Origin: Phycisphaerae bacterium
Lineage (GTDB): Bacteria > Planctomycetota > Phycisphaerae > Phycisphaerales > UBA1924
Assembly (NCBI GenBank): GCA_022180725.1
Contig: BQMO01000001.1
Span: 62,001 to 126,000, forward strand
Reading direction: 5' to 3'
DNA: 64,000 nt
Shown here: positions 39,736-47,159 of the stretch, in pieces
How the letters are laid out: each line of letters starts with the position of its first letter
Numbering within the stretch: the first letter of the stretch is position 1
Made by a program: the position numbers and the translations under genes
Notes under the pieces: model-generated
Seen by the model: only the letters and a program-made list of their open reading frames with translations
The model's database searches: none
Told to the model about the DNA's origin: nothing

Positions 39736-41195
39736 AGGCTCGCCCGGGTCAGGTTTCATCTGTGGCGGAAACCCTTTCGCCAGCACAGGGCCTGCGCGTG
39801 CTCATTCTCGACGAGGATGTGGCCCTGACGCGCTCGATGTCCGCTTTCCTGAAGCGTGAAGGCCACGACCCCCTCGCCGCGCACGACCGCCCCGCCGCCG
39901 ACGCCGCCCTCGCTCAGGCCGACGACGCCGGCACGCCCTTCGCCATCGCCATCATCGGCGTCACGGCCTGCGGCGACGATTTGCCGGAGTATCTCCGCGT
40001 CCTGGCCCGTCGCCATCGCCGAACCGCCGTCATCGTGCTCGCCGGCTACCCGACGGTTGAGCACGCGGTCGAATCGCTTCGCCTGGGCGCGTGCGATTAT
40101 CTCGTGAAACCCCTGGTCGACGCGGAACTGCGCCAGAGCCTGACGCGCGCCGCCCACCAGCACGCGCTGCAACGCGAGAACCAGGCCCTGCGTTCGCGAC
40201 TCGACGAGCGGCTCGACCTCGAGGGCATCGTGGGCAATGACCCGCGCATGCGCCGCGTCTACGACATGATCCGCGCCGTGGCCGCGGGCAAGACCACCGT
40301 CCTGATGGAGGGGGAAAGCGGCACGGGCAAGAGCCTCATCGCCCACGCCATTCACCACCACGGGCCGCGGCGCGACCGTCCCTTCGTCGAAATCTCCTGT
40401 GGAAGCATCCCCGAAACGCTGCTCGAAAGCGAACTCTTCGGGCATGTGAAGGGCGCCTTCACCGGCGCCCACGCCGACAAGGCCGGCCGCTTCGTCGCCG
40501 CCAACGGGGGCACGCTCTTCCTCGATGAGATCAACAGCGCCAGCCCCGCGATGCAACTCAAACTCCTGCGCGTCCTCCAGGAACGACGCTTCGAGCCGGT
40601 CGGTGGCAGCAAGACCGTCGAGGTTGACGTGCGGGTTATCCTCGCGAGCAACCAACCCCTCGAAGATCTCGTCGCCTCGGGGCAGTTCCGCCAGGACCTC
40701 TACTACCGAGTCAACGTCGTCAAGATCGAACTGCCTCCGCTCCGCGAACGCCTGGGCGACATCCAGCCCCTCGCTGAGCGCTTCCTCGCTCGCTTCGCGG
40801 GCGAACTCGGGCGGCAGCTCGTCGGCTTCACCCCCGACGCGCTCGACGCGCTCCGCCTCTACCGATATCCCGGCAACGTGCGCGAACTCCAGAACATCGT
40901 CGAACGGGCCGCTGTTCTCGCGCGCGGGCAGACCATCACTCGCGATGATCTGCCCGAGGCCGTTACGTCACCCCCGGATGGACCGCTCGCGCTCTCGCGT
41001 GGCGACGCCGCGTGGGTCCCCAGGCCCCTCGAAGAGGCCCTGCGCGAACCGGAGAAGCGCATCATCCTCCAGGCGCTCGCCGCCAACAACTGGAACCGCC
41101 AGAGGACCAGTGAAGTGCTCGGCATCAACCGCACCACGCTCTACAAGAAAATGAAGACCTACGGGCTGCTCGACGACGAGCGCCTCGCGGGCTGA
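39732..41195 (+). CDS. Sigma-54 activator with a receiver-like domain lacking the phosphoacceptor Asp
   Basis: A 487-residue NtrC-family protein. The receiver-like domain (20-140) keeps the acidic cluster DED (27-29) and the Lys of LVKP (126), but the phosphoacceptor position in AIAIIGVTACG is Gly76 and the Thr/Ser position in VLAGYPT is Ala. The AAA+ domain is intact: Walker A GESGTGKS, GAFTGA sigma-54 loop, LFLDEINSA Walker B and the sensor RYPGNVRELQN. The Fis-type HTH ends the protein (RQRTSEVLGINRTTLYKKMK). The GTG start overlaps the kinase stop. So it should bind sigma-54 polymerase, but normal phosphorylation looks impossible. Its last 37 bp overlap the convergent hydrolase gene. Confidence 0.9.
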   Translation: MKARPGQVSSVAETLSPAQGLRVLILDEDVALTRSMSAFLKREGHDPLAAHDRPAADAALAQADDAGTPFAIAIIGVTACGDDLPEYLRVLARRHRRTAVIVLAGYPTVEHAVESLRLGACDYLVKPLVDAELRQSLTRAAHQHALQRENQALRSRLDERLDLEGIVGNDPRMRRVYDMIRAVAAGKTTVLMEGESGTGKSLIAHAIHHHGPRRDRPFVEISCGSIPETLLESELFGHVKGAFTGAHADKAGRFVAANGGTLFLDEINSASPAMQLKLLRVLQERRFEPVGGSKTVEVDVRVILASNQPLEDLVASGQFRQDLYYRVNVVKIELPPLRERLGDIQPLAERFLARFAGELGRQLVGFTPDALDALRLYRYPGNVRELQNIVERAAVLARGQTITRDDLPEAVTSPPDGPLALSRGDAAWVPRPLEEALREPEKRIILQALAANNWNRQRTSEVLGINRTTLYKKMKTYGLLDDERLAG

Positions 41196-41998
41196 ACCGG
41201 CGGCGGCGAGGCCCGCGTCGCGAAGGGCGGTTCGCCCCGGAGCCGCCTCGCGATCTCGACCTGCAACCGCCGGTCGTAGATGCTCGCAAAGTGCGAGAGC
41301 ATGCGCGGCACGAACCCCACCGGATCGAGCCAGTACGGCTCCATGCCGAACGGGGCCGTGTTCTCCTCGCCCACCAGCCAGTCCCGCCGAAGCGCCAGAC
41401 ACGTCAGGTCGTATGTTCTCGCGGGGAAGGCCTCATCGAGTCGGCGAAGCAGATCGGACCCCGGTCGCAACTGCTCCGAGGCCCGGTCCAGCCGCACCTT
41501 GGCCGCCAGGCGCGCCCCGCGGTGCGGCGAAACGAGCGTAAATACCCGTACGGCTCGCACCACCTCGGGCCCGCCGAGGCCCAACACCCCGCTGGTGATG
41601 GCCCGGGCCACAATCCCGCCCATCGAGATGCCTACAAGGTCGATCTCGCGCCCGCTCAGCCCGCGATGTTCGACGACGCGCATCGCCTGTCTCGCCGCGG
41701 CGTCGACCGACATCGCCAACGGGTACGTCGCCCACGCGAAGTCGCTCCAGCGGCCGCTTGTGAGTTTGCACAGCCGCCTGGCCAGGCCCCACGCCGTGAT
41801 CCCGGGGGAGTGCCACCCGTCGAGCACCAGCACCGGGCGCGGCAGAGACCTGTGATCGGTCCGCATCCGCCGCCATTCCGCCCGGGCCAGTTCGTGCGAG
41901 AGCGCGAAATCGGGGTTGTGCACCGTGCCGTCGGGCGCAGGGCGATCGACCACGCGGGGCGTGCTCGCGGCGTCCGGCATGGCGGGGTCGGCGTTCAT
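41159..41998 (-). CDS. Alpha/beta-fold hydrolase (lipase/esterase-like)
   Basis: A 279-residue soluble protein of the alpha/beta hydrolase fold. VLVLDGWHSPGITAWGL holds the oxyanion region and DLVGISMGGIVARAI has the nucleophile elbow GxSxG (GISMG). VSPHRGARLAAKV resembles the region after the elbow in lipase class 3/PGAP1-like enzymes. The acid and histidine of the triad are not certain; FASIYDRRL has no clear His-containing end motif, although MLSHFAS is a candidate. No signal peptide. It overlaps the 3' end of the sigma-54 regulator and is divergent from the TraB-like gene (51-bp spacer). Substrate unknown. Confidence 0.78.
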   Translation of the reverse strand: MNADPAMPDAASTPRVVDRPAPDGTVHNPDFALSHELARAEWRRMRTDHRSLPRPVLVLDGWHSPGITAWGLARRLCKLTSGRWSDFAWATYPLAMSVDAAARQAMRVVEHRGLSGREIDLVGISMGGIVARAITSGVLGLGGPEVVRAVRVFTLVSPHRGARLAAKVRLDRASEQLRPGSDLLRRLDEAFPARTYDLTCLALRRDWLVGEENTAPFGMEPYWLDPVGFVPRMLSHFASIYDRRLQVEIARRLRGEPPFATRASPPPVQPARRSSSSSP

Positions 41999-42049: not shown

Positions 42050-43279
42050 ATGACCACGACCATTCTTCGCCGTCTCGCCCTGGTTCTTTCATGCTTCGCG
42101 ATCGCGCCCGCCCAGGCTCAGGAAGCCGCGTATGTACGCGCCGTGGACGCTCACGACGGCAACAGCCGCCAACTCCAGGTCGCCGTACGCACGTTCGCCC
42201 CGAAGGATGGCGCCGGGCCGCTGGTGCAGATGGTCGGCGTGGTTCACATCGGCGACAAGGCGTACTACGACCAACTGCAACAATACCTTGACGCCCAGAC
42301 GATCGTGCTGTACGAGGGCGTGAAGCCCGCCGGCGCGGGTGACACCCAGGGCACCGATGAGGACAAGGCGAAGATCACCACCGCACGCCAGCGGATGCTC
42401 GCGATCCTCATCGCGCGGCATCGTCGAGAACACAAACAACTGCCCGAGTCGATCGAGGCGTGCACAGCGGGCCTCGCGGGCACGCTGGGTCGCATCGCCG
42501 CCGCCGCGGTGAACGACGCCTGGGGACGCCCGATGCGGTACGACGTCGTCACGACCGCCGAGGGGTCGAAGTTCGAGATCGAGTCGTACGGGAGCGACGG
42601 CGTGGCCGGGGGCGAGGGGCATGCGGCGGACCTGCGCTTCTCGGCCCAGAAGCCGCTCACCCGCCGGGAGGTCTCCGCCGCGGGCGAGGGCATCCAGACG
42701 CAACTGGCCGAGGCGCTGGGACTGGTCTTTCAACTCTCGGCGATCGATTACACGCGGCCATCGTGGAAGAACAGCGACCTGTCCGTGGACGAGGTCGAGG
42801 CGCGCCTGGAGGCCAAGGGCGCGGGGGGCGAGGCGCTCTTCCAGATGCTCGACGGCTCGTCGGCCATGGCGATGATGGGCGGCGCGGTGCTGAAGATGAT
42901 CGGGTCCAGCCCCGAGATGTCGTTCATGGCGAAGATGATGCTGGTGGAGGCGCTGCCGGCGTCGGACGACATGACCAAGGCCGCCGGCGCCGAGATGGGT
43001 GCGCTGATGGAAGTGATCATCGTGGACCGCAACGCGGCGGTGCTGGCGGACCTGAAAGCGGCCCTCGCCGAGCACCCGCAGGCCGAGAGCATCGCGCTGT
43101 TTTACGGGGCCGGGCACCTGCCGGACCTGGAGCGTCGCCTGGAGGCGGACTTCGGGTACGCGTACAAGGAATCGCGGTGGTTCACAGCGATCGATGTGGA
43201 CCTGACGGCGATCCCCGGGGGCAAGGCCCAGGCCGAGCAGATGCGCGAGATGATGAAGATGATGCGACCGAAGCCATGA
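42050..43279 (+). CDS. Exported TraB/GumN-like protein with an inserted pseudopilin (GspG)-like segment
   Basis: A 409-residue exported protein (signal peptide to about residue 24, ALVLSCFAIAPAQA). Residues 58-92 (VQMVGVVHIGDKAYYDQLQQ, IVLYEG) and 345-395 (SIALFYGAGHLPDLERRL, RWFTAIDVDL) are TraB/GumN-type, with the GxxH and GAGH motifs of that fold. Between them, residues about 110-197 read like the C-terminal domain of type II secretion pseudopilin GspG: a helix, NDAWGRPMRYDVV, FEIESYGSDGVAGGEGHAAD. In GspG the DxWGxPY...S.G.DG..GG.G...DI motif is typical. The two halves of TraB thus surround a pseudopilin-like insert. It is followed by an overlapping YjbR-type gene. Function unknown. Confidence 0.75.
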   Translation: MTTTILRRLALVLSCFAIAPAQAQEAAYVRAVDAHDGNSRQLQVAVRTFAPKDGAGPLVQMVGVVHIGDKAYYDQLQQYLDAQTIVLYEGVKPAGAGDTQGTDEDKAKITTARQRMLAILIARHRREHKQLPESIEACTAGLAGTLGRIAAAAVNDAWGRPMRYDVVTTAEGSKFEIESYGSDGVAGGEGHAADLRFSAQKPLTRREVSAAGEGIQTQLAEALGLVFQLSAIDYTRPSWKNSDLSVDEVEARLEAKGAGGEALFQMLDGSSAMAMMGGAVLKMIGSSPEMSFMAKMMLVEALPASDDMTKAAGAEMGALMEVIIVDRNAAVLADLKAALAEHPQAESIALFYGAGHLPDLERRLEADFGYAYKESRWFTAIDVDLTAIPGGKAQAEQMREMMKMMRPKP

Positions 43280-46097: not shown

Positions 46098-46982
46098 TCA
46101 ATCGAACTTGGTCGGGAACATCGGCCGCGTGGTGTAGACGTTGTCCTTGTTGTAGTCCTCGATGATGTTGTCGCTGGCGTCGTGGAGGACGCCGACCTTG
46201 CCGTCGGGGCCGGCGGAGTAGAAGTACGGCCTGTTGCCGATGCACGATCCGCCATCGGAATCCGGGAGTCGCTGGGCCGTCAGCGGCGAAGGGAGCGGCT
46301 CGTGCGCGACGGCGTTCCGGCGGATGGAGGGGATGATGTACGACGTACCGGTGCGGGCCGGGCCGAGGATCTGGTCGACCGTGCGGGCCGCGTCGTGGTT
46401 GGGATTGGGGCTGCTGGGGTCGTCAAACTGCATGCCGTCGAAGGCGGGGTGCACGTACCGCATCGGACGCCCCCAGGCGTCGAGCGGGGTTTGAATGGCC
46501 GGCTGGCGGTCGGGGGCACGATCGGCGTCGAAGACGGCGGAAAGGCGCTGCGGGAGCGCGTTGAGGGCGGCTTTGGCGGTGGACGACGGGCGGGTGCGGA
46601 TGATCTGCCCGGTATAGGTGGGCGGAGTGACCTGCGTCAGGAACAGCCCGGCCGAGTTGATCATCTGGTTGCCCGCGGGCGACATGCCCGTGTCCGCGTC
46701 GGTCATGTTCCGGGCGTCGGCGACAGGGAAGAACTGGCCGCGCCGGGTGGGGTCGGAGGCGGCCCGCGGGTCCTCGGCGATGGGCGGGGGGTTGTCTTCG
46801 AGTTCGGTGATGTACGCCTGAAGGGCGTTGTCGAGCACGCGCAGGCCGTCGGCGGTCAGGCTTTTTTTAGCCCCGGATGTGACCGCGGACCCGACCACGA
46901 AGACGACGGCCACGAGCACGGCAATCAGCCCGATGACCACGAGCATTTCCATGAGCGTGAAGGCGCGGCGGGAGGCGAGCAT
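46098..46982 (-). CDS. Type II secretion-like pseudopilin (prepilin with class III leader)
   Basis: A 294-residue protein with a type IV prepilin leader: MLASRRAFTLMEMLVVIGLI, with the cleavage Ala/Phe-Thr-Leu and Glu5 of the mature protein (FTLME), followed by the hydrophobic helix. The C-terminal part has PLDAWGRPMRYV and YFYSAGPDGKVGVLHDASDN, the GspG/major-pseudopilin region. It is much longer than GspG (about 140) because of a Pro/Asp-rich middle part with an unusual insert (TGMSPAGNQMI ... SSPNPNHDAAR). Planctomycetes have many such solitary 'DUF1559-like' or T2SG-like pilins. Its DAWGRPMRY block also occurs in the TraB-like protein at 42050. Confidence 0.85.
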   Translation of the reverse strand: MLASRRAFTLMEMLVVIGLIAVLVAVVFVVGSAVTSGAKKSLTADGLRVLDNALQAYITELEDNPPPIAEDPRAASDPTRRGQFFPVADARNMTDADTGMSPAGNQMINSAGLFLTQVTPPTYTGQIIRTRPSSTAKAALNALPQRLSAVFDADRAPDRQPAIQTPLDAWGRPMRYVHPAFDGMQFDDPSSPNPNHDAARTVDQILGPARTGTSYIIPSIRRNAVAHEPLPSPLTAQRLPDSDGGSCIGNRPYFYSAGPDGKVGVLHDASDNIIEDYNKDNVYTTRPMFPTKFD

Positions 46983-47159
46983 GGCGATCTCCGGGTGCGG
47001 TACCTTGCGCGACGAAAGGCGACGCGTCGGCAAGGATAGCGCGGGGACGCCCCCATCCCCACAAGAGTGTACGGCCCGGGGCTGGTTCGGGTTGCGGGCC
47101 GTCCTTGCGTAACTTCGGCGGGCAGACCCGCGCACCCGGACGCGGTATTCTTTCCCAGC

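Follow-up and report, generated by a model that had tools for sequence, protein, structure and literature searches.

The gene at 42050-43279 (+) of the window (the whole stretch of 64,000 nucleotides that was analysed) encodes a Phycisphaerales TraB/TIKI enzyme-like protein of 409 aa with one GspG pseudopilin head inserted in its fold, an observation that the analyses described below confirmed. The reading that we favor, to which we give a probability of roughly 0.5, is that this is an exported TraB/TIKI hydrolase-like protein, in which the pseudopilin head with its calcium loop lies beside the active site and selects or gates the substrate. An artefact of the ORF or of the assembly was ruled out by the recurrence of the same uninterrupted architecture at 57 loci in different assemblies.

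The protein begins with a signal-peptide-like segment (residues 1-23, 42050..42118, +), recognized from the sequence and the model, which reads MTTTILRRLALVLSCFAIAPAQAQEAA and ends in APAQA, followed by QE. The model renders this region as a low-confidence helix (residues 5-13) followed by a loop. Hydrophobic N-termini are present in 44 of the 57 fused homologues, and the protein is likely to be exported through the predicted signal peptide.

The inserted GspG head

Searches against Pfam recovered a T2SSG match at residues 151-195 of the window protein (E 1.9e-6, above the gathering score), and 52 of the 73 members of the family alignment A2 gave matches to the same profile (best 3.7e-12). A profile search of the PDB initiated with the family recovered, at E <= 0.01, no structures other than those of GspG, the best being XcpT (2kep, 5.3e-12) and EpsG (3gn9, 9.3e-10). 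The AlphaFold2 model of the window protein, computed from a 73-sequence alignment (pLDDT 90.4, pTM 0.85), displays two folds in one model. Its residues 100-201 match EpsG (3gn9 and 3fu1) with Z 10.4 over 94 residues and 4lw9 with Z 10.2 and an rmsd of 1.8 A over 87 residues. Together with the absence of this segment from insert-free homologues, these results delineate an inserted GspG head with its alpha1C helix at residues 100-204 (42347..42661, +). The alpha1C-equivalent helix itself spans residues 103-128 (42356..42433, +), as assigned by DSSP on the model. The preliminary description, made from the sequence alone, had placed a GspG domain in the middle of a TraB-like protein, and this is borne out by Pfam, the PDB profile search and the model. 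The span of 110-197 that it gave was correct in position, if slightly narrow, as the structural match covers 100-201 and the insert-free homologues resume at about 211, giving an insert of approximately 100-210. Its statement that both the pilin helix and the prepilin leader are absent holds for the leader and the hydrophobic alpha1N, but not for alpha1C, which is kept.

Could the GspG similarity be due to chance, or could the segment be an ordinary TraB element? The T2SSG match covers just 45 residues when the window protein is taken alone. However, the segment is missing from insert-free TraB relatives, the family profile matches GspG only in the PDB (best E 5e-12), and GspG chains are the best structural matches at residues 100-201. 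The preliminary description had itself named a normal TraB element as the finding that would overturn it; when this was checked, the relatives proved to lack the head and the insert matched EpsG/GspG at Z 10.4. We accordingly rejected this alternative on the strength of the insert-free relatives and the structure, and regard it as extremely improbable.

A T2SS pseudopilin has a prepilin leader and a hydrophobic N-methylated alpha1N. Neither is present in the window protein, in which a TraB half precedes the head and no N_methyl match was found with Pfam at E <= 10. It is hence not filed as a T2SS pseudopilin, and its head cannot enter a filament because alpha1N is absent.

The TraB/TIKI flanks and the predicted active site

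The two flanks together constitute one TraB/TIKI fold. The N-terminal half (residues 27-97, 42128..42340, +) is conserved in insert-free relatives and contributes strands 29-34, 39-51, 58-64 and 85-88 to the model, while the C-terminal half (residues 212-385, 42683..43204, +) is defined by the Pfam TraB match and by its alignment with the insert-free relatives. The TraB_PrgY_gumN profile (PF01963) matches the window protein at residues 293-358 with E 7.8e-4, a score that for this protein alone lies below the gathering score (19.8 versus 26.8 bits); across alignment A2, 53 of the 73 members match at E <= 0.01 (best 8.6e-12). The model of L085, an insert-free homologue (pLDDT 85.5, pTM 0.81), matched ChaN (Z 7.0), HopBA1 (5.3), BcR135 (4.7) and EreC (4.3), these members of the TraB/TIKI superfamily ranking directly after Tetrahymena chains. 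The top rank is held by a subunit of the mitochondrial complex IV of Tetrahymena (Z 8.2), which among solved structures matches the TraB core best (PDB 7w5z_E, 8b6h_DQ, 8bqs_DQ; Z ~8).

The complete set of active-site residues of the form GX2H ... E ... R-N ... GX2H is present, with H66, E89, R327, N328, G353 and H356 invariant in all 73 sequences. The first GX2H motif is GVVH (residues 63-66, 42236..42247, +), with H66 in 73/73; its glycine, G63, is retained in 41 of the 57 fused rows and is otherwise S or A. It is followed by the predicted catalytic glutamate E89 in VLYEGV (42314..42316, +; 73/73), the Arg-Asn pair R327-N328 (43028..43033, +; 73/73) and the second GX2H motif GAGH (residues 353-356, 43106..43117, +), in which G353, G355 and H356 are invariant in 73/73. 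The Z values are moderate, but in combination with the Pfam matches and the motifs they make the superfamily assignment firm. The claim that the flanks are TraB-like is consequently upheld by the 53/73 Pfam matches, the invariant TIKI-type residues and the L085 matches to ChaN, HopBA1, BcR135 and EreC, and the converse, that the flanking parts are not TraB-like, was examined and spoken against by the same results.

HopBA1, BcR135 and ChaN have been named, along with PMT, as TIKI-superfamily structures (PMC6254334). The same source describes RRSP as a TIKI-fold endopeptidase that depends on the corresponding His/Glu residues together with an Arg close by, and that recruits its substrate with a separate lobe. 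As VvRRSP is metal-independent (PMC6254334), a metalloprotease mechanism is not assumed for the window protein. Under the favored reading, the protein, once exported via its predicted signal peptide, would hydrolyse a peptide or ester bond at the predicted H66/E89/R327/H356 site. The calcium-stabilised head might then serve as an accessory domain at the mouth of the active site, selecting or gating the substrate. This proposed role is drawn from the insertion of the head right after the catalytic-Glu strand, a topology that would place it near the active site; the function of the head is the least certain step of the mechanism.

Distribution and history of the insertion

Some match to the window protein was detected in 45 of the 61 genomes of relatives and none in the remaining 16. 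The first 30 loci, the window itself aside, each aligned with 34-62% identity over at least ~350 residues. Among the nearest 80 genome loci the insert is present in 57, nearly all labelled as Phycisphaerales or other planctomycetes, whereas the insert-free remainder are mostly from Verrucomicrobiota. A class-wide sample of 298 genomes yielded full-length fused matches in the window's own order only; outside this order the matches to the two TraB halves adjoin each other and the insert is lacking. The phylum sample contributed further fused forms in families f57, f63 and f85, plus f83 (in which the contig is cut off at its end), and many further insert-free forms. The search for the same architecture in other planctomycetes that the preliminary description had called for was thus successful, both among the nearest loci (57/80) and in the families of the phylum.

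In the insert-free relatives from Verrucomicrobiota and other planctomycetes the E-G-V sequence is joined directly to the next TraB helix, indicating a clean domain insertion. For instance, the catalytic-Glu strand of L085 runs straight into this helix (VLFEGVGGKSKKKMRFDPEEETSIQHTMASALGLVFQL). The head enters the fold between E89 and helix 215-222, about ten residues past the catalytic-Glu strand, and between window residues 98 and 212 the fused rows have 100-134 residues as against 6-34 in the insert-free ones. The same catalytic residues are retained in the insert-free relatives, and the head is therefore an add-on to the core.

When a tree was computed for the TraB part, leaving out the insert columns, it required three changes of the fused state. 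In its free form this tree has the insert-free Verrucomicrobia nested among the fused rows. Constraining the fused rows to a single clade gave an AU p of 0.537, so that one origin is not rejected; accordingly, the loss of the head hinted at by the nesting of the Verrucomicrobia was not retained as a result. A tree of the heads (105 columns, too short to resolve) groups the heads of the fused proteins apart from most pilin heads, a pattern compatible with a single origin. The simplest reading is one capture of the head, with possible later loss in Verrucomicrobiota.

These patterns also bear on the alternative that the insert is a neutral passenger, tolerated and with no role beyond being able to fold. 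The retention of the whole predicted active site in the insert-free relatives favors it, and secondary loss, which would fit the weakly supported nesting of the insert-free Verrucomicrobia among fused forms, would do so too. However, the head is retained down to ~30% identity with D156, W158, S179 and D194 invariant, and its entropy of 2.3 bits is only moderately above the 1.8-1.9 bits of the TraB halves. We hence consider a passenger unlikely.

The calcium loop and the genomic context

The head contains the GspG calcium-loop motif SYGSDGVAGGEGHAADL (residues 179-195, with D183 and D194; 42584..42634, +), recognized by its conservation and by comparison with the solved EpsG of V. vulnificus, which reads GADGQEGGEGAAADI at this position. 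D194 and S179 are each present in 57 of the 57 fused rows and D183 in 54, and the fold residues D156 and W158 are invariant in the fused homologues (n=57). The preservation of these five residues in 54-57 of the 57 homologues argues that the head is held folded by selection. Position 192 is occupied by A in 25, D in 18 and N in 11 of the 57 rows, with A also being found in the solved EpsG. The GspG loop binds calcium, which stabilises GspG, according to Korotkov 2009 as cited in PMC5131608, and by analogy the head of the window protein probably binds calcium at its loop. Three fused TraB proteins of family f63 (L154, L155 and L156) keep the length of the insert with a decayed calcium loop, implying that calcium is not universally needed.

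It is conceivable that the head is mainly a calcium-dependent switch of folding or activity, with the enzyme staying inactive until it has been exported to a compartment rich in calcium. The conservation of D183 (54/57) and D194 (57/57) and the stabilisation of GspG by calcium, as reported in the citing source, would agree with this; the loss of the loop in L154-L156 and the variability at position 192 count against it, the latter with the reservation concerning A in EpsG. On balance a primary role as a switch appears rather doubtful.

The fused gene has as its divergent neighbor an alpha/beta hydrolase related to PGAP1/DUF7379 (41159..41998, -; from the neighborhood comparison), which starts 51 bp from the start of the TraB gene and whose relatives occur beside the fused gene in 18 of the 57 loci by tblastn and in 14 by clustering. 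Other recurrent neighbors are ispG (18 loci) and a HEAT-like protein (18 loci). No T2SS genes or conserved operon were found around the fused gene at the 57 loci, no neighbor at the fused loci points to a substrate, and a search for plasmid carriage of the fused gene gave no match. Encoded at 46098-47135 (-) of the window is a large protein resembling pilins, which has an N-methylation motif (Pfam N_methyl only, no T2SSG) and contains the string DAWGRPMRY, found identically in the insert at a distance of 3 kb.

The context further allows one to evaluate the proposal that the head serves for docking or as a decoy. By binding components of T2SS or type IV filaments or other pilins, it would recruit the hydrolase to the secretion machinery, or give it access to pseudopilins or exported substrates. 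The insert does retain the GspG fold plan, GspG-type pseudopilins are present in 61 of the 61 genomes of relatives, and the genome of the window protein has six secretin matches. The universal presence of GspG also makes any correlation of the fused gene with T2SS uninformative. Yet many GspG-bearing relatives lack the fused gene or a match to it (16/61 without any match), which indicates that it is dispensable as a partner; nor does it lie with T2SS genes, and the head lacks the hydrophobic alpha1N, the main element of filament packing. Docking thus strikes us as a rather improbable role, and the selection or gating of substrate by the head remains the preferred reading.

Free GspG heads in other planctomycete proteins

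The TraB insert is not the sole free pseudopilin head in planctomycetes: following weak matches of the insert profile uncovered other non-pilin planctomycete proteins with free GspG heads. Four tandem heads are present in L178 (410-1876, -), L179 (1125-2714, +), L180 (64-1494, -), L181 (2-1531, -) and L182 (203-1561, -), proteins of family f49 with ~450-530 aa, a signal peptide and no pilin N-terminus. In L195 (1767-3494, -) HEAT repeats are followed by three tandem C-terminal heads. Single C-terminal heads were found in the non-pilin proteins L183 (279-2882, +; 867 aa, with a DUF1559-type segment) and L184 (2395-4602, -; 735 aa), and in L194 (503-1705, +; 400 aa), which combines a zinc ribbon and membrane helices with the head. 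The genome of the window protein itself encodes, on contig C14, a protein of 563 aa (L146, 25-1716, +) that weakly resembles GspG in a stretch near its C-terminus (RYPASLRELVP...DPWSG...LYSVGNDGTDNGG).

In the tree of heads, the head of L183 branches together with genuine pilins from the same class (starred branch), which suggests several independent captures. Taken together, TraB inserts, four-fold repeats, HEAT fusions and C-terminal heads of membrane and large proteins make it fairly probable that the planctomycete pseudopilin head is a general exported calcium-loop module, freed from the filament machinery by several independent captures. Searches of open-access papers brought up neither a combination of GspG with TraB nor free GspG heads, and this wider reuse, of which the TraB insert would be one part, is apparently undescribed. 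A T2SSG/GspG annotation in planctomycetes is hence not by itself proof of a pseudopilin.

Comparison with known systems

Pilin heads are filament parts, on to which other modules are grafted. The present case represents the reverse traffic: a pseudopilin head lacking the helix used for assembly resides inside a protease-like enzyme superfamily and in other exported proteins, as a filament part reused as a free building block. The TraB/TIKI superfamily is widespread and poorly understood, and the naturally occurring forms that have or lack the head offer a test both of the role of the head outside the filament and of how TraB/TIKI proteins gain specificity.

The window protein shares with the TraB/PrgY/GumN - TIKI - EreA/ChaN superfamily (PF01963; ChaN 2g5g, HopBA1 5t09, BcR135 3b55/2rad, EreC 6xcs/6xcq) a common core fold with the paired GX2H, the Glu and the Arg-Asn, but differs from it in having a pseudopilin head that follows the Glu strand and precedes the next helix. 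This head has the alpha1C, beta hairpin, DxWG motif and calcium loop (SLGADGxxGGEGxxADI) of GspG/EpsG/PulG/XcpT (PF08334, TIGR01710; 3gn9, 3fu1, 4lw9, 2kep, 5o2y). Unlike the T2SS major pseudopilin GspG, it has no leader or alpha1N, which precludes its processing or polymerisation in the manner of a pilin, and it lies inside another fold. The combination of a pilin-type fold with a functional module is reminiscent of modular pilins such as PilB of S. sanguinis (PMC8179133). These are defined by an N-terminal pilin module with a class III signal peptide (PMC8179133), which the sequence, Pfam and the model do not reveal in the window protein. In modular pilins the extra module comes after the N-terminal pilin module, whereas in the window protein the arrangement is reversed, with the head being a guest in an enzyme fold.
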